DNA of 22,220 bases from a virus, in the IMG/VR virus record IMGVR_UViG_3300025120_000625, positions 1 to 22,220 of that record. One strand, 5' to 3'. Numbering within the stretch: position 1 is the stretch's first letter; each line of letters starts with the position of its first letter. The translations under genes and the position numbers were made by a program. The notes under the pieces are model-generated. The model saw only the letters and a list, made by a program, of their open reading frames with translations, was not told where the DNA came from and did no database searches. Positions 4,014 through 21,890 of this stretch are shown here, piece after piece.

Positions 4014-5569
4014 TGTCAGATGTGACCAGTACAGTAATCAATCAAAGGCCAGCCTATATTCAAGGTTATGACGAGGCTTTACTACAACGTATCTTTGGCG
4101 CTGACGATGGAACTGGACAGTTTACAGGAGGTCTTATTGATGATCCTGAACTTTTCCAGCAACTAGATTACACTCAAGGTGCAGACACAACTGGATTACA
4201 AGCTGCTGTTGCAGGCGGTCTTGACACAGATCAAGAGCGCCAAGACTTTATGGATCGCTACGCTCCTTACTTCACGGATGCAGAAGGCAAGCCACGTTTC
4301 CTACCAGAAGCTGGCAAAGCAATGGGTAAAGGCGAAGATACAATCTCTACTGCTTTGTCTGATTATATTCCAGATGCAAAAGGTTATTTAGACAAGGGCG
4401 TGGGTTCAGTAGATGCAAAAGGCATTTTTGACACTGAGCTAAGTGGAGCTAAAACAAGAGCAGATCAAGGAACAGATGCTTTTGACACACAGTCAAGAGC
4501 CGAATCTTTGTTGGGAGATGCCCGTAGCGCAGTTAAAGGCGGTCTTGGTCAATTCGATGCTCAAGATTCTTTTGATCGCAGAACACAACGCGCTGAAGCA
4601 CTTACTGATCAAGGTCTAGGTAAGTTCGATCCATCATCTGTTGATGAGTTTATGAACCCATACCAAGAAAAAGTTATGGACGCAGCCTTAGCTAAAATTG
4701 ATCGTGAAGGCTCAAAGATGCGTCAGGCTGGTGCCGCTAAGGCAATCGGTGCAGGAGCGTTCGGTGGCTCTCGTTCAGGCGTTCAGGCCGCAGAAACAGA
4801 AAGAGCCATTGCAGAGCAAAAGCAAAACACCATAGCTGGATTAATGTCTCAAGGTTACGACAAGGCTCTGAAAAGCGCTGCATCCGCTGATGAAGCTGCT
4901 CGTAAGCGTGCTTTGCAGGGTTCTAGTCTTGCTGGTCAACTTGGCGTTCGTGGCTCTGCTGCTGAACAAAAATCTTTTGAAGACGCTGCAAAGCGTGGCA
5001 TAGGTGCGGGTCAGCAACTTGGCGCTCTTGGTTCCACACAGCTTGGCACAGAAGCAAAGACATTTGCAGATGCCGAAACTCGTATGCTTAAATCTGCTGA
5101 GATATACCGCAATATGGGCCTATCAAGCGCTGAAGCTCAAGCTCGTGCGCAAGAAGACGCTTTCAAGCGCAACTTAGAAACTGGTCGTTTAACTGGTGGC
5201 CTTGGTCAAACTGTAGGTCAGTTAGGTGGAGCGCAAGCAAATATTGGTCAGGGGTATGGTCAGTTGGCGGGTACGTCTTCTAACATTGGCGCTAACTACG
5301 CTGGTATTGCTCCTGCTGACTTGAACTTCATGTACGGACTTGGCGGCAAAGAACGTGCTTACGATCAACAGCGTCAGGACTTCAATCGTGCAAATGTCAA
5401 CCTTAATACAACAACTGCACTCGCTCCTTACAGTTATGGTCAAAACTTCTTAACAGGATCGCCATCTGCATCTATGTACGGAAGCTTTACCCAAGCGCCA
5501 AGCAGCGCACCTAATCCTTTCCTTCAAGGTGTTGGAGCTTACGCTACATACCAAGGTATGAATCAATAA
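4013..5569 (+). CDS. Probable internal virion/DNA-ejection protein 1
   Basis: The 518-residue product is rich in Ala, Gly and Gln with long predicted helices. A recognisable block, DEFMNPYQEKVMDAALAKI, runs into an Ala/Gly-rich stretch with GAGAFGGSRSGVQ (about residues 207-260). I associate this block with structural or ejection proteins of podovirus-like marine phages. Three loosely repeated segments of the type FDxQxRAxxLxxxA with a GLGxFD end precede it. The C-terminus is Asn/Gln/Ser/Pro-rich and looks disordered. Translation is coupled to the previous gene (TAATG, with GAGAGGA upstream). By position it corresponds to the first of three large ejection-type proteins, comparable in order to the trios of T7 or P22. 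That comparison is inference, not homology I can show. Confidence 0.65.
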   Translation: MSDVTSTVINQRPAYIQGYDEALLQRIFGADDGTGQFTGGLIDDPELFQQLDYTQGADTTGLQAAVAGGLDTDQERQDFMDRYAPYFTDAEGKPRFLPEAGKAMGKGEDTISTALSDYIPDAKGYLDKGVGSVDAKGIFDTELSGAKTRADQGTDAFDTQSRAESLLGDARSAVKGGLGQFDAQDSFDRRTQRAEALTDQGLGKFDPSSVDEFMNPYQEKVMDAALAKIDREGSKMRQAGAAKAIGAGAFGGSRSGVQAAETERAIAEQKQNTIAGLMSQGYDKALKSAASADEAARKRALQGSSLAGQLGVRGSAAEQKSFEDAAKRGIGAGQQLGALGSTQLGTEAKTFADAETRMLKSAEIYRNMGLSSAEAQARAQEDAFKRNLETGRLTGGLGQTVGQLGGAQANIGQGYGQLAGTSSNIGANYAGIAPADLNFMYGLGGKERAYDQQRQDFNRANVNLNTTTALAPYSYGQNFLTGSPSASMYGSFTQAPSSAPNPFLQGVGAYATYQGMNQ

Positions 5570-7582: not shown

Positions 7583-10500
7583 ATGACGCCTCAAGAACAG
7601 CTAAGACTTTTAAGAGCTTCAAAAGACGAAAATATTGCAGCGTCTAAAAAGTTACAAATTATGAGAGCTATAAAAACAGGTGAGGGTGATATAGACTCTA
7701 TTCTTGGCACCCCTAATGAAGAAACAAATCCTCTTGGAATGAGAAGTGCAAAATCATTTGAAGAATTATTAAATTCTTCAACAAATAGAGACAAGGGTTT
7801 TGATTACGAAACTGGTGCTGGAAGTGGACTTCGAGCAAAGTTGTCATTTATGGAAACTGCTGAAGAAAAAGAAAAATTGCTTCGCAGGCTTGTTGGCGAA
7901 GATGGTTTTACAAAAGACTCAGAAGGTTTATTGGCTTTAACTGAAATTGGTCAGTTAAGTCAAGGTATGAAACCTATTGGGAAAAACCTTGTTATTGAAG
8001 ATGAGGGACTTAGTTTTGGTGACGTAGCTGATCTTGCTGGATTAGTTCCTGAAACAGCAGGCGCGGTTATTGGTGGTATTCTTGGCGCTCCGGGTTTGTT
8101 CACAGGGGCCGTTGGTGCCTCTGCTGGTGCCGCCGCAGGTCAATCCGCTGAAGAATACATAGAAAACTTGTTAGGTTTACAAACTCAATCTGGCATAGAA
8201 GTAGCAGCAGACGTGGCAAAAGAAGCTGCTTTAGCTGGTACTTTTGATTTTGCTGGAAATCTAATATTTAAAGCAGGAAAAGCTGCATTTGGGTTGGCTG
8301 GTAGAGGCGTTAAAGCAAGCACAGCGGCTGGTCAAGCAACAGAGTCACAACAGGCCGCAGGATTACGCGCTCTTAGAATTTTAGATGCGGGTGGTCTTCC
8401 CGGTGCAGAAGCTGCTGGATTAGGCCCTGTTGCCTCTAGGCTGTCTGCAACCTCAAGAAATATATCAGGAAGTGAAGATCAAGCTATAAAAAACATTTTC
8501 TTTGCTAGATCGCAAAAAGACAAACTTTTAGAAGATGCTGGAGTGGGTAGCATAGATGAAGTTGCAGATGTAATAAAAAATTCTACTCCTGACAAAGCAA
8601 ATAGATTAAACAAATCTCTTTTAGACGCACAGGAGTTGTCTGCTAAGGCTTTAGATGACGCACTTGGTGTTTTAAGTAAAGCGGTAGATGAAGGCGTTGA
8701 TGTTGGAGATGATCTTTTAACTCAATTAGTTGGTGGTTATGATAACTTTGTAAAAGAAGCGAACGTATGGTATCAAGGCGTTGACGATACACTTTCAAAA
8801 ATTAAAAAACCTATTACTATAGGTAAAGGTACAAGCCGTAGAACCATTACTCAAGAAGGCGGCGAATTACCAATTTTTGATATATCTCACTTAAAAACTC
8901 AATATGACGATGTAATAAGCATTGATTACGATGGAGTTGCAGAGCTTGCACCCGAAGCTTTCAGCGCTTTTGGAAATGTTTTAAAGAAATTAAATGCTAA
9001 TACTGCGGATGGCTCTAAAGCAGGATTTACATCTTATAGGGGTCTTCGTTCATTTCGTAAAAACATCAACGATGCTTTGTATGATAGAAGTATGGGTATA
9101 GGAAACACAACAGAAAGAAAGTTATTAGCAGAGATGAGAGATTCTGTTGATGAAATGATGCAAGGCGCTCTTCCAGTAACCCTTAAAGGCTTAACTGACA
9201 CTGAAGGTAAAATAATTAAACAAGCTCTTAAAAAACATAAAATTGCTCAAGCGAATTATGCTAAAGAGATAAAAGTTCAAGAAAAATTAGAAAAATTAAG
9301 TATTTTAAGAAATGTTGGTGAGGCTGGCAAAGATGTTAAGCTTGTAGCGGGACAGAACTTTAATGCTATAATTTCTAGACCAGATCGCATTAAGGCTGTT
9401 TTAGAAGCTGTAAAAAGAAATTCAAAACTTGCTGGAGTAGAAGACGGTTCAGAAGGAGTTCGCAGGTCATTAGCTAGGCAATATTTAGACGATGCCTTAA
9501 CTAACGCAAACAAAGATTCTTTAGACCCTACTTCTTTTAATGGAGTCAAATTTTATGACTCAATTAAAAAAATAAACAAATCAGGTGTGGGCAAAGAGTT
9601 GTTTGGTGAGGATTGGAATCAAGTTCAATCTTTAGCTAAAGCTGTATCTTACAATGGCATTAAAAAAATTGACGAATCAATTATGCAAAAAGTTATTCAA
9701 CAGAATCCCGGTGATGATGTTGTTATAACTTTAAAAAATGTTTTAGATGCTCAAATTGATTTGCAAAAATCTCAATCTTCTAAAGTTTTAAACGATTTAG
9801 CTAATGGCAAATTAGATGCAGAAGACGCAGCAATATCTATATTAAATCCAAATTTAGGAAATTCTCAAATAAAATCAATTCTTGAATTTTTTGAAAGTGA
9901 CCCAGTTGCTAAAAAAACGATACAAGATGCAATACTTAGAAATGTGTTAGGTGCTGTTGATGACAAGATATTTATTAGTGAAGCTTCTGCATTTTCTCTT
10001 AGAAACGCTATAGATGCTTACAAGCCCGGAGTTTTAAAAACAGTTTTAGGAAAAGAAAAAATGGAAGGTCTTGAGCAACTTGCTGATGATCTAGTATTTC
10101 TTAAAGACACAGGGAGCAGAGGTGCTGGTGCATTGGCTGCTGAAGCGATTCGTACAGGTTTAATTACTTCTCCAATGAAAAATGCAACAAAAGTTGGGAG
10201 GTTTAAACTTTTAGATCGCCTTATCAACAGCCCAGATACTATGAGAAAATCTTTAGAACTTCGTACTGGAGCAAAAACACCTCAACAAGTTTCTGATGCT
10301 ATTGCTATGCAATTTAATGAAGCAGCCGCACGATCAACTGGATCACAAATTCCAATGACCGAAAATGTAGCACAAATTGGACAGCGTATAGGTTCTGGAT
10401 TGGGAACTATAAATCGTGCTAAATCTGCTGTGAGACAGGGTGGAATAAGAGCGATTCTTGCAGATCAAGAAGCTCGTGGAACACGCCCACCTATGATTGA

Positions 10501-10663
10501 TATTCCTACAGTTAATCAGCCGATAGCTACTGATGTTCAAGTTAGAAAAAAAGTTAACCCAAGAATTTCACAACAACAAATAGATTTACGAGAACGCGCA
10601 AAGTCTAATCCGTATGTTGCATCTACATTATTAGGCGGTCTTGGAAGTGCGGGTCTGCTCTAG
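7583..10663 (+). CDS. Large internal virion/DNA-ejection protein with glycine-zipper segment
   Basis: The 1026-residue product is the largest in the window. Residues about 153-187 are almost entirely small and hydrophobic (LVPETAGAVIGGILGAPG, then AVGASAGAAAG), a glycine-zipper pattern typical of proteins that insert into or oligomerise in membranes. Most of the remainder is helical and charged. The C-terminus ends in a second short hydrophobic stretch, VASTLLGGLGSAGLL. I see no lytic transglycosylase or peptidase motif of the kind T7 gp16 carries. The ribosome binding site AAAGGA lies ten bases before ATG 7583. As the last gene of the trio it could form the channel through the host membrane during infection; that is inferred from the zipper and the position. 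Its stop overlaps the convergent RHH gene's stop. Confidence 0.65.
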   Translation: MTPQEQLRLLRASKDENIAASKKLQIMRAIKTGEGDIDSILGTPNEETNPLGMRSAKSFEELLNSSTNRDKGFDYETGAGSGLRAKLSFMETAEEKEKLLRRLVGEDGFTKDSEGLLALTEIGQLSQGMKPIGKNLVIEDEGLSFGDVADLAGLVPETAGAVIGGILGAPGLFTGAVGASAGAAAGQSAEEYIENLLGLQTQSGIEVAADVAKEAALAGTFDFAGNLIFKAGKAAFGLAGRGVKASTAAGQATESQQAAGLRALRILDAGGLPGAEAAGLGPVASRLSATSRNISGSEDQAIKNIFFARSQKDKLLEDAGVGSIDEVADVIKNSTPDKANRLNKSLLDAQELSAKALDDALGVLSKAVDEGVDVGDDLLTQLVGGYDNFVKEANVWYQGVDDTLSKIKKPITIGKGTSRRTITQEGGELPIFDISHLKTQYDDVISIDYDGVAELAPEAFSAFGNVLKKLNANTADGSKAGFTSYRGLRSFRKNINDALYDRSMGIGNTTERKLLAEMRDSVDEMMQGALPVTLKGLTDTEGKIIKQALKKHKIAQANYAKEIKVQEKLEKLSILRNVGEAGKDVKLVAGQNFNAIISRPDRIKAVLEAVKRNSKLAGVEDGSEGVRRSLARQYLDDALTNANKDSLDPTSFNGVKFYDSIKKINKSGVGKELFGEDWNQVQSLAKAVSYNGIKKIDESIMQKVIQQNPGDDVVITLKNVLDAQIDLQKSQSSKVLNDLANGKLDAEDAAISILNPNLGNSQIKSILEFFESDPVAKKTIQDAILRNVLGAVDDKIFISEASAFSLRNAIDAYKPGVLKTVLGKEKMEGLEQLADDLVFLKDTGSRGAGALAAEAIRTGLITSPMKNATKVGRFKLLDRLINSPDTMRKSLELRTGAKTPQQVSDAIAMQFNEAAARSTGSQIPMTENVAQIGQRIGSGLGTINRAKSAVRQGGIRAILADQEARGTRPPMIDIPTVNQPIATDVQVRKKVNPRISQQQIDLRERAKSNPYVASTLLGGLGSAGLL

Positions 10664-10881
10664 TCCTCTAAAACAGAAGACAGGCCACCGATACCAACTG
10701 CGGCTGGCGCTTGATAAACTTGGTTGCCCTTGACACGAGATTCAATGTTTTCGTATGTTTCGTTAATCATACGAGAAAGCTGACGCCCTATAGAACGGTC
10801 TTCGTGCGTTGCTATAAAAACTAACTTATCGTATGCTTCAATCGAAACACCTACGGATTTGTATTTTCCGGGGTTTGGCAT
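10660..10881 (-). CDS. Ribbon-helix-helix DNA-binding protein
   Basis: The 73-residue product has an RHH-like layout: a strand YKSVGVS (7-13), then two helices with AYDKLVFIATHEDRS leading into IGRQLSRMINETYENI (29-46). RHH proteins dimerise through the strand, which contacts the major groove, and often repress their own promoter. I chose ATG 10881 because GGAAGG (10891-10896 on the minus strand) is nine bases away; an ATG at 10899 would add six residues with a poor SD. The gene runs against its left neighbour, sharing the CTAG stop overlap, and lies only 20 bases from the divergent nuclease start. No toxin gene is adjacent, so a phage transcription regulator is more likely than an antitoxin. 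Its targets are inferred. Confidence 0.7.
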   Translation of the reverse strand: MPNPGKYKSVGVSIEAYDKLVFIATHEDRSIGRQLSRMINETYENIESRVKGNQVYQAPAAVGIGGLSSVLED

Positions 10882-10901: not shown

Positions 10902-11276
10902 ATGACTTTCCCTACTGTATATAATCCCAAACTGCGTGGGTCAAGGCCCAAGTATGGAAATAAAAAGGTTGTTGTTCAAGGCATTAAGTTCGATTCCAAG
11001 TGGGAAAGCCAGAGGTATCTATACCTCAAGTCGCTTGAGCGTGCTGGAACAATCAAAGACCTTGAGCTACAGGTTAGGTTCAACTTAGAAGTTAATGGTC
11101 AGAAGATATGCGCCTATGTTGCTGACTTCTGTTACAACAGAGAAGACAAGGATGGCGTGTGGCATTATATTGTTGACGATGCCAAGGGTGTTGAGACGCC
11201 TGAGTTTAAGCTGAAGAAGAAGTTGATGAAGGCTTGTCTGGGGATTGATATTCTGTTGTCGAAGAAGGGGGGCTAG
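10902..11276 (+). CDS. DUF1064-type PD-(D/E)XK nuclease
   Basis: The 124-residue product matches the DUF1064 pattern closely: KYGNKKVVVQGIKFDSKWESQRYLYLKSLERAG-type N-terminus, a YVADF strand, and VDDAKG. The likely catalytic set is E35, D75, D93 and K95 (D-x-K). The family has a restriction-endonuclease-like fold, and phage members are often found with replication and recombination genes as putative branched-DNA or Holliday-junction nucleases. The start ATG at 10902 has only a distant GAGG (10885-10888) as SD, so translation may be weak. The stop TAG lies in the loop of a G6C/GC6 hairpin. It is divergent from the RHH gene, and the predicted RHH promoter lies inside its first codons. Confidence 0.8.
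   Translation: MTFPTVYNPKLRGSRPKYGNKKVVVQGIKFDSKWESQRYLYLKSLERAGTIKDLELQVRFNLEVNGQKICAYVADFCYNREDKDGVWHYIVDDAKGVETPEFKLKKKLMKACLGIDILLSKKGG
10916..10944 (-). promoter_or_regulatory. Candidate promoter of the RHH gene
   Basis: On the minus strand, TTGACC (10939-10944) is followed after exactly 17 bases by TATACA (10916-10921). This would start transcription about 28 bases before the RHH start codon. CCCAC overlaps the 3' end of the -35 box. The whole promoter sits inside the first codons of the divergent nuclease gene, so binding here by the RHH protein could affect both genes. Confidence 0.45.
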
Positions 11277-11284
11277 GCCCCCCC
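11267..11284. terminator. Possible bidirectional hairpin terminator
   Basis: GGGGGGC (11267-11273) and GCCCCCC (11277-11283) form a 6-7 bp pure G/C stem with the nuclease stop codon TAG as the loop. It lies between two convergent genes, where a shared terminator is expected. Neither side has a strong run of U (the plus side reads AATAATTATTT), so intrinsic termination may be weak. Confidence 0.45.
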
Positions 11285-11289
11285 AATAA

Positions 11290-11628
11290 TTATTTACATT
11301 TGGCGATGTGCGCCTTTAGTTTCTTGGCAATACTGTCAAAGTATTTGCCCCCTGCTAAAATCGTAGGCTCATCATCCCAATGACCCTCACGATAGTCAAT
11401 TTGAGCGCGGTTATCCACATCACTGTGGAAGATGCCCATAATATCAACATCAACCTGAGTTGATGGCTTGATATTCCCAGACAAGAAGTCATCTAGGAAA
11501 GCAACGTACTGATCTTGTAGAGCCTGCGGCTCTATATTGTCAGCACACTCAATGAAGTGTGAAACTTCACTGGAGGTGTAGTCAGGCTTTCCGCGAAAGC
11601 TGACCCCGAATGGAATGGTATTAGGCAT
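11290..11628 (-). CDS. Acidic 112-residue protein of unknown function
   Basis: I do not recognise this protein. It is small and acidic (roughly 18 Asp/Glu against 11 Lys/Arg), with acidic clusters VDVDIMG, SDVDN and HWDDEP in the middle and a basic C-terminal helix (AKKLKAHIAKCK). No membrane segment or metal motif is clear. ATG 11628 has a strong SD, AAAGGAG (11635-11641 on the minus strand). A very good promoter lies further upstream and a hairpin follows the stop, so it appears to be a single-gene transcription unit divergent from the replication operon. That setting is typical of early phage proteins that act on host machinery or control the switch, but its function is open. Confidence 0.75.
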   Translation of the reverse strand: MPNTIPFGVSFRGKPDYTSSEVSHFIECADNIEPQALQDQYVAFLDDFLSGNIKPSTQVDVDIMGIFHSDVDNRAQIDYREGHWDDEPTILAGGKYFDSIAKKLKAHIAKCK

Positions 11629-11687
11629 GGCGTACTCCTTTCAGAGTATTAGAGAAATAGAAGGAAACCTTCGTCTGTGTTAATACC

Positions 11688-11716
11688 ACTATATCCCATA
11701 CCAAGTGGGAAGTCAA
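11688..11716 (-). promoter_or_regulatory. Leftward promoter with operator-like dyad
   Basis: On the minus strand, TTGACT (11711-11716), a 17-base spacer and TATAGT (11688-11693) make a strong sigma70-type promoter for the 112-residue gene. The spacer holds a dyad: TCCCA and TGGGA separated by seven bases (11694-11710). It also contains CCCAC-N3-GTATGG read on the minus strand, which recurs in the opposite promoter at 11781-11794. This is a likely operator. Confidence 0.65.
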
Positions 11717-11717
11717 C

Positions 11718-11766
11718 ACCTAAAATAAAAAAAATTATCTAAATAAAAAAATATTTTTTAAAAAAC
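11718..11766. other. A/T tract between divergent promoters
   Basis: About 49 bases are almost pure A/T, with a 14-bp palindrome AAAAAATATTTTTT (11746-11759) overlapping TTTTTTAAAAAA (11754-11765). The phased A-runs should give bent, easily melted DNA. It lies directly beside both -35 boxes, so it may act as an UP element for both promoters. A role as an unwinding element of a replication origin is possible, but I see no iterons nearby. Confidence 0.4.
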
Positions 11767-11770
11767 CCAC

Positions 11771-11801
11771 TTGACAGTCACCCACACTGTATGGTTATAG
11801 T
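11771..11801 (+). promoter_or_regulatory. Rightward promoter of the replication operon
   Basis: TTGACA (11771-11776) is a perfect -35. The best -10 is TATAGT (11796-11801), which gives a long 19-base spacer; it is the same hexamer as in the leftward promoter. The spacer contains CCCACACTGTATGG (11781-11794), the second copy of the CCCAC-N3-GTATGG element, and another CCCACTT lies just before the -35. The long spacer suggests that the promoter may need an activator or be weak by itself. The first gene starts at 11835. Confidence 0.55.
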
Positions 11802-11834
11802 TGGGACTCTAGTAACAAGCGGAAAGGAAACGAC

Positions 11835-12233
11835 ATGGAAAGTCGTGATATATTTGAAGTTAGAAAAGTTCTAAAAGCATCTATGGCTGATCTCAAGGAT
11901 CAGTTAAAAGAAGTAGAAGATAAACTGTCATCTACATATCTACCAAAAGCCAAGGAGTTACTTGGTTATAATGGTGAAGACTTTGGCACCGTAAACATCT
12001 CTCATGGTAACGACATAATAAAAGCAGTTGTCTCCAAGAAAGTAACATGGGACCAAGAGCTTCTTCGTGAGGCTTTGTCTAAACTGTCTGAGGAGGACGC
12101 AAGGCATTACGGCAAGCTTACCTTTGCTGTTGAGGAACGTAAGTTCACAGCCGCACCTCCTGCAATAAAGCGGATGTTAGAAGATTGCCGCACCACAGAA
12201 ATTGGTAGCTTCAAAGTAGAACTGGAGACATAA
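11835..12233 (+). CDS. First gene of the replication operon, unknown function
   Basis: The 132-residue product is not one I can name. Residues about 10-45 form a charged helix with heptad-like spacing (VLKASMADLKDQLKEVEDKL), likely a coiled coil. The rest has an alternating pattern suggesting a small alpha/beta fold (DIIKAVVSKKVTWDQELLREAL, then KLTFAVEERKF). AAAGGAA sits six bases before ATG 11835. The gene directly precedes a Sak4-like ATPase and an SSB-like gene in one operon, so a part in recombination or replication, perhaps as a structural or regulatory subunit, is a reasonable guess. Its stop is one base before the next ATG. Confidence 0.7.
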   Translation: MESRDIFEVRKVLKASMADLKDQLKEVEDKLSSTYLPKAKELLGYNGEDFGTVNISHGNDIIKAVVSKKVTWDQELLREALSKLSEEDARHYGKLTFAVEERKFTAAPPAIKRMLEDCRTTEIGSFKVELET

Positions 12234-21114: not shown

Positions 21115-21544
21115 TTTTTAATCCTTTCTTTGGCCTTTGCTTGGGCCTGATACTGACCTTTATTGCAACAGGCTTCTCATAAGAATAAAAAATATGAGTG
21201 CCAATACGAGCCAACCTATATAGTTTCTTACGCCAAACAGGACGAACCTTTGTAGTATGAAAATGATCTGCGGCTATCGGCGGCAAAAAACTAGGGTCTG
21301 ATAAAGACTTAAAAGCAATATCCTTAGATTGCTCCCATGCTTCCTGATCCCTTGGAATAGGCACAAGTCCATTGCGAACAAAAGAAAACTGCTTTGGTTG
21401 CGCGATAACACTGCAAACATCATCTGGAAACCTTTTGGATTCCACACGATTAACAATTACACGCGCTACCATAAGCTGGCCGACTTTAGGTTCTCCCCTC
21501 GCCTCATGATAAAGCGCTAAAGCCAAACACAATTCTGCTATCAC
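21107..21544 (-). CDS. SleB-type cell-wall hydrolase
   Basis: The 145-residue product matches the SleB/hydrolase_2 pattern: ALYHEARGE (10-18, with the likely catalytic E14), GQLMVARVIVNRV, a PKQFSF segment and AADHFHTT followed by WRKKLYRLARIGTHIFY (104-120). Members cut the glycan strand or spore cortex, and phage copies serve as endolysins. There is no signal peptide. The C-terminus is strongly basic (KVSIRPKQRPKKGLKSD), which may help it reach the outer membrane or wall. GTG 21544 overlaps the upstream stop (GTGA) and has no SD of its own, so translation depends on coupling. This is a second lytic gene besides the M15 peptidase at the left edge. Confidence 0.85.
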   Translation of the reverse strand: MIAELCLALALYHEARGEPKVGQLMVARVIVNRVESKRFPDDVCSVIAQPKQFSFVRNGLVPIPRDQEAWEQSKDIAFKSLSDPSFLPPIAADHFHTTKVRPVWRKKLYRLARIGTHIFYSYEKPVAIKVSIRPKQRPKKGLKSD

Positions 21545-21822
21545 TTCTCAATGTCCAATTTGTACATCCAATTTTGTAAAACTTGGTAACTTTTTAAACC
21601 TAATAAATTAGCAGCATTTTTTAGGTTTTTACTTTTGTCAATAGCTCTCCTGATGTAGTCACGCTTTACATCGTCAAGAGCAGAGTGAACATCGTAATGC
21701 TCCTCATACCGATCAAGAGGTAAATACCCCTCAAACTCATCGCGTAACTCCTCCAAATCAGATTGCGTTGTTATGCCCGTTAACCTGTCAAGCAAGTAAC
21801 GAAACGTAGGTCGATCTGTCAT
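21541..21822 (-). CDS. Fis-like HTH DNA-binding protein
   Basis: The 93-residue product ends in VKRDYIRRAIDKSKNLKNAANLLGLKSYQVLQNWMYKLDI (52-91), the Fis/HTH_8 arrangement in which a helix pair starting at NAANLLG reads DNA. The N-terminal half is acidic (LEELRDEFEGYLPLDRYEEHYD) and may be the dimerisation part. ATG 21822 has GGGAGG eight bases upstream; a TTG at 21828 would be too close to that SD. It overlaps the stop of the 22-codon mini-ORF (TAATG) and, at its end, the start of the hydrolase gene. It may regulate this minus-strand block or act as a nucleoid-type factor. Confidence 0.75.
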   Translation of the reverse strand: MTDRPTFRYLLDRLTGITTQSDLEELRDEFEGYLPLDRYEEHYDVHSALDDVKRDYIRRAIDKSKNLKNAANLLGLKSYQVLQNWMYKLDIEK

Positions 21823-21890
21823 TACCAATTCCTCCCGAAGACTTTTGCAAATACTTCGTCGAGAATTTTTTCTAATTCATCTTTTGTCAT
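21822..21890 (-). CDS. 22-residue mini-ORF
   Basis: The frame reads MTKDELEKILDEVFAKVFGRNW, a single amphipathic helix. GAGGG lies five to six bases before its ATG. The start is inside the end of the upstream gene and the stop overlaps the Fis-like gene's start (TAATG). Both ends therefore look like coupled genes. It could be a real small protein or a coupling leader for the regulator. Confidence 0.45.
   Translation of the reverse strand: MTKDELEKILDEVFAKVFGRNW

Follow-up and report, generated by a model that had tools for sequence, protein, structure and literature searches.

Organization of the Locus

The window analyzed here is the whole of a 22.2-kb IMG/VR virus contig (22,220 nucleotides) from an uncultured marine phage. 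Its rightward half encodes a replication and recombination operon, in which the first gene (11835..12233, plus strand; phrog_2480) is followed by genes for a Sak4-like annealing protein, a helicase, a Cas4-type exonuclease, and a primase-helicase. To the left of this operon lie an accessory, or cargo, gene encoding 112 aa (11290..11628, minus strand), a DUF1064/Holliday junction resolvase-like gene (10902..11276, plus strand; PF06356 at 1.4e-19, phrog_190 at 3.7e-34), and the gene of a 73-aa ribbon-helix-helix (RHH)-like protein, the candidate repressor (10660..10881, minus strand). The end of this last gene overlaps by four bases (10660–10663) the end of a large structural gene on the opposite strand (7583–10663). 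Where the DUF1064 gene ends, between the two converging genes, the hairpin GGGGGGCTAGGCCCCCC (11268–11286) is a possible bidirectional terminator, though it has no clear U run.

By sequence comparison, the phage has no close cultured relative. Judged by a structural protein (~31–39% identity), the nearest cultured phages are among those of Roseobacter (CRP-901/902) and SAR11, and the RHH-like protein found no match in the phage records searched for cultured relatives. One related phage contig (L213) was binned with a Rhodobacteraceae MAG, which hints weakly at where the host belongs. A search for phage RNA polymerase (PF00940) gave no match, but it gave none in the control genomes either, so this negative carries no weight. 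Little is known about gene timing in marine phages of the Roseobacter and SAR11 type.

Two Divergent Promoters Share a Dyad

Between the accessory gene and the rightward operon stand two divergent σ70-type promoters. P_L, on the minus strand, has the form TTGACT-N17-TATAGT, with its −35 box at 11711..11716 and its −10 box at 11688..11693. P_R, on the plus strand, has the form TTGACA-N19-TATAGT, with boxes at 11771..11776 and 11796..11801, so that the two spacers are unequal. All four boxes are read from the sequence; the −10 box of P_L and the −35 box of P_R recur in relatives, and TTGAC-N17-TATA is found at P_L in 31/31 locus entries, 18 of them distinct. The initial annotation had reported identical −10 hexamers and a shared element, CCCAC-N3-GTATGG, between −35 and −10 in equal orientation to transcription. 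Both statements hold: CCCACTTGGTATGG occupies 11696–11709 on the minus strand and CCCACACTGTATGG occupies 11781–11794 on the plus strand, one in each spacer, and these are the only two exact matches in the window. The reversed pattern, used as a control, has zero matches there. When up to two mismatches are allowed, the window contains 4 matches against 2.5 expected, which is no enrichment; the significance of the element derives instead from its position and conservation, that is, from its presence at the same place in relatives. The annotation had staked the element on its not being frequent in coding DNA and on its presence in the corresponding region of related phages; it is not frequent in the former and is conserved in the latter.

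The half-sites CCCAC and CCATAC had been described as a loose dyad. The dyad stands, and it is stronger than that wording implied: a better description is the 15-bp dyad CCCAY-N5-RTGGG, which the left site matches at 10/10 defined positions and the right site at 9/10. A dyad scoring 10/10 is expected 0.07 times in shuffles. The predicted operators are O_L (CCCACTTGGTATGGG; 11695..11709, minus strand; score 21.0 with a matrix built from the left and right sites), within the 17-bp spacer of P_L, and O_R (CCCACACTGTATGGT; 11781..11795, plus strand; score 17.5), within the 19-bp spacer of P_R. Many relatives extend the dyad to ATCCCAY-N5-RTGGGAT, as in ATCCCACTCCATGTGGGAT of L066. The predicted half-site is TATGGGAT (reverse ATCCCATA), and its paired copies are spaced ~10–11 bp, in most cases as inverted and in some as direct repeats. 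At the divergent spot comparable to this one, Roseobacter phage CRP-901 has a different helix-turn-helix (HTH) regulator, and its intergenic sequence, read by eye, contains no such dyad.

Immediately 3′ of the P_R −10 box is TGGGAC, which is a further TGGG half-site or a GGGA discriminator, and then a TCTAG leader motif at 11808. The longer form TCTAG(T/C)A recurs just 5′ of ribosome-binding sites, those of operon-internal genes included (11808, 13078, and 13788 in the window; also in G006, G021, and G022). In three ~55-kb relatives, 28 of the 196 occurrences of TCTAG fall in such leaders, against 4.8% for permuted pentamers; the motif is possibly a signal for RNA processing or translation.

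Conservation among Relatives and the Accessory Slot

Counterparts of the rightward operon's first gene are encoded by 168 candidate stretches, from which 80 loci were kept; about 90 related contigs were compared, yielding 93 P_R locus entries with some contigs entered twice. P_R and O_R are kept in nearly all of them, with a 19-bp spacer in 86/93 entries (39 distinct sequences). All loci with a leftward gene retain P_L, and its spacer is 17 bp in every entry. Over the distinct promoter sequences, 39 of P_R and 18 of P_L, complementarity between the arms is maximal at the dyad centre (0.56–0.67, against 0.00–0.41 at shifted centres). The offset of the dyad from the −35 box varies, being 3, 4, or 5 bp. 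O_R deviates in some relatives, as in ATATCACACTGTATGC of L028–L035, and some near relatives have direct TATGGG repeats in P_L and inverted ones in P_R.

Spacing between DUF1064 and the operon follows a bimodal distribution: 57–63 bp, or 411–787 bp with a leftward gene. In the short class, as read from the sequences, the TGA stop codon of DUF1064 lies inside the −35 box. The intervening accessory slot (11277–11834 in the window) is empty in most relatives, and the 112-aa gene is either absent from them or replaced. The leftward genes that do occur are of several apparently unrelated kinds (112, 70–87, ~88–102, and 144 aa) behind a promoter and operator that are alike, which indicates that P_L serves the accessory slot. 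Since P_L drives an optional accessory gene, it is not one half of a λ-like switch. The initial annotation had proposed that one regulator acting at both promoters would set the early switch; a shared and conserved operator is indeed present, but the system extends beyond these two promoters. The slot appears to be a place where unrelated genes come under one common operator.

A Third Site in the Promoter of the RHH-like Gene

A third site was missed by the initial annotation and was found with the position matrix built from the left and right sites only. O_RHH (CCCACGCAGTTTGGG; 10926..10940, minus strand) belongs to the promoter of the RHH-like gene and falls within the opening codons of DUF1064. 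This promoter has the −35 box TTGACC (10939..10944, minus strand) and, after a 17-bp spacer, the −10 box TATACA (10921–10916), and it is conserved in relatives. With a score of 15.1, O_RHH ranks third in the window, and in all of 10 related contigs it is one of the five best sites. When TTGA[CT] is required in addition to the matrix, O_RHH scores 11.4–15.1 in 17/17 genomes; the highest score in 544 kb of shuffled sequence is 8.6. In most relatives this region reads TTGAC-CCACGCNNYTTGGG-ATTATATAC.

The sites in these 17 genomes are homologous copies and are not independent; the synonymous test is therefore the weightier argument. Among 54 distinct coding sequences, DUF1064 shows complete synonymous invariance at codons 6–9, 12–14, and 16 (1.0; the mean for the gene is 0.64), while codons 10 and 11, at the dyad centre of O_RHH, vary. 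To judge from these coding sequences, the invariance under O_RHH exceeds what the protein code demands. An autoregulatory promoter is thus predicted to be concealed within the coding start of a neighbouring gene.

The ~55-kb relatives contain a further class of early promoter, in which TGGG stands directly before and directly after the −10 box, 10 bp apart (positions 18/28 or 19/29 from −35), with TCTAG just downstream. Examples are found at 30144 and 28765 in G011, at 30809 and 29485 in G021, and at 5120 and 6376 in G022. These promoters may be further targets of the same binder or may in part display core promoter signals. Their number lends something to the view that the conserved bases are mostly such signals, a TRTG-like extended −10 and a GGGA discriminator, marking strong early promoters on which no regulator acts. 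This view leaves the CCCA arm and the dyad symmetry unexplained. Furthermore, the TGGG of O_RHH is 4–5 bp further from its −10 box, yet it is frozen at synonymous sites. As a full account it is very unlikely, although the core promoter could account for some of the TGGG bases near the −10 box.

The Candidate Binder

The start of the 73-aa protein at 10881 corresponds to Met7 of the listed open reading frame and is backed by the ribosome-binding site GGAAGGA and by homologues that begin there. Pfam, PHROG, and NCBIfam scans of 25 members returned no family match, RHH families included; searches with PF01402 and PF03869 across 13 contigs, up to E 10, found no match, and hhalign against Arc and CopG gave nothing. 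The AlphaFold monomer, of low confidence (pLDDT 64), places helices at 14–26 and 31–53, both after an extended conserved stretch, KYKSVGVS, and a structure search with it produced no useful fold match. Against solved structures there is a weak in-register match to HP0222 (E 0.66), the only RHH-type protein among the weak matches. The pattern of a KYKSVGVS strand followed by two low-confidence model helices suggests that the protein probably adopts an RHH fold, although no RHH family profile recognizes it. The RHH protein named in the initial annotation is a plausible candidate for the binder, with a conserved dyad in its own promoter, but the class assignment has no profile match behind it.

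Variation among relatives bears on whether the sites have one binder. In one clade, where the RHH protein has diverged (~46% identity), O_RHH is without its CCCA arm, and P_L and P_R have both switched to the same new 18-bp element, ATCCCATASTATTCCATA, of the form ATCCCATA-S-TATTCCATA, which stands in opposite orientation to transcription in the two promoters. Such a parallel change of P_L and P_R is expected if they share one binder. In a Rhodobacteraceae-binned relative, the RHH protein is at 50% identity, all three sites are kept, and the KYKSVGVS strand is unchanged.

That shared binder may be another protein, either a phage HTH protein or a host regulator. A 95-aa protein encoded at 21541–21828 has, by eye, a Fis-like C-terminal HTH, is kept in most relatives, and is a second candidate regulator; it is present in 7/10 related contigs, and relatives also encode Myb/GcrA-like HTH proteins. 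An inverted repeat whose half-site centres are 11 bp apart would suit an HTH dimer as well. The Fis-like protein is missing, however, from three contigs, which may be incomplete, and no operator was found at its gene. Only the RHH-like gene sits in every contig that reaches its place, adjoining the operators each time, and is itself preceded by a promoter containing the dyad. A binder other than the RHH-like protein is consequently unlikely, if still the most credible of the alternatives.

A Model for Early Shut-off

The three promoters share sites that are conserved in both sequence and position. The same predicted operator is present in the RHH-like gene's own promoter and in the early promoters, an arrangement expected of an autoregulated early repressor of the Arc/Cro kind. 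The reading that we consider fairly probable is that the element is the operator of a dimeric phage DNA-binding protein, most likely the 73-aa RHH-like protein, which by occlusion would shut off the early genes together with the gene that encodes it. Taken separately, the two components of this reading, binding by the RHH-like protein and repression by the binder, are each quite likely. After infection, host polymerase would fire the near-consensus σ70 promoters at once. Paired half-sites occupy the core of P_R, which serves the replication and recombination operon, of P_L, which serves the accessory gene, and of the RHH-like gene's own promoter; elsewhere in the genome, further TGGG half-sites flank the −10 box of early promoters. 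Once enough of the RHH-like protein has built up, it would cover the spacer and −10 box and block polymerase, so that the early operon, the accessory gene, and the RHH-like gene itself would all be shut off together. Near-consensus boxes with an operator inside the core promoter fit occlusion by a repressor, and viral RHH proteins commonly repress in this way at their own and early promoters (PMC5569661). A lysogeny switch governed by a temperate repressor was considered and set aside: tyrosine integrase (PF00589) is absent from 17 possibly incomplete contigs, with positive controls, which makes lytic shut-off the likelier role.

What counts against a pure repressor is the suboptimal 19-bp spacer of P_R, which such a model leaves unexplained. 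In bacteria whose start sites have been mapped, among them alphaproteobacteria, the most frequent spacing is 17 bp (PMC8407463). The long spacer may lower basal strength, or it may signal that P_R is controlled in another way, in the manner of MerR. MerR regulators act on 19–20 bp spacers (PMC8113463), and the contrast between a P_R spacer of 19 bp in 86 of the 93 entries and a P_L spacer that never departs from 17 bp allows the reading that one small protein corrects the geometry of P_R, activating or timing the replication operon, and represses the 17-bp P_L and its own 17-bp promoter. If true, the early genes would have a built-in order that requires neither an HTH nor a MerR protein. Activation of the MerR type needs a dyad held rigidly at a fixed place in the 19–20 bp spacer, whereas here the offset varies and the dyad lies toward the −10 box. 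Moreover, general family scans found no MerR match among the proteins scanned, and RHH proteins usually repress by occlusion (PMC5569661). With 17-bp spacers at P_L and the RHH-gene promoter and a variable offset from −35, a MerR-type mechanism was rejected as the main view, and activation at P_R combined with repression elsewhere is improbable.

Under repression by occlusion, an early regulon, its operator, and its candidate repressor would be legible from sequence, with three sites within 900 bp and one 73-aa protein.

Comparison with Known Systems

Arc of phage P22 is a small RHH protein whose targets of repression are early promoters, its own among them, and which acts through short half-sites inside the promoter. 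The role and half-site placement proposed for the 73-aa protein would be of the same type. The two proteins have no sequence match, and P22 is temperate, with Arc in the ant immunity region, whereas here a replication and recombination operon would be controlled and no integrase was found. λ Cro likewise is a phage protein that lowers the activity of host-polymerase phage promoters in the lytic cycle. T7 gp5.7 acts in a similar manner (PMC5569994). Both differ from the 73-aa protein in being HTH or winged-HTH-like, unrelated in sequence, and directed to other sites.

Among viral RHH proteins, F55 of the Sulfolobus virus SSV1 and SvtR of SIRV1 offer a likeness in acting by occlusion at several viral promoters and their own, F55 through tandem repeats in early promoters (PMC5569661). 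Their promoters are archaeal, F55 maintains lysogeny, and the sites are ATAGATAG rather than the TATGGGAT predicted here. Omega/ParB of pSM19035, also an RHH protein, accepts direct or inverted half-sites (PMC9499535), an alternation that would be matched by the one between relatives here; its half-sites are contiguous 7-bp heptads serving plasmid partition and copy control, in contrast to the ~10-bp phased half-sites of the phage. MerR-family promoters resemble P_R only, in having a dyad within a 19-bp spacer, and differ from this system in the 17-bp spacers of P_L and the RHH-gene promoter and in the rigid position of the dyad. The best reading of this system is a probable early shut-off like that of Arc, Cro, or F55.
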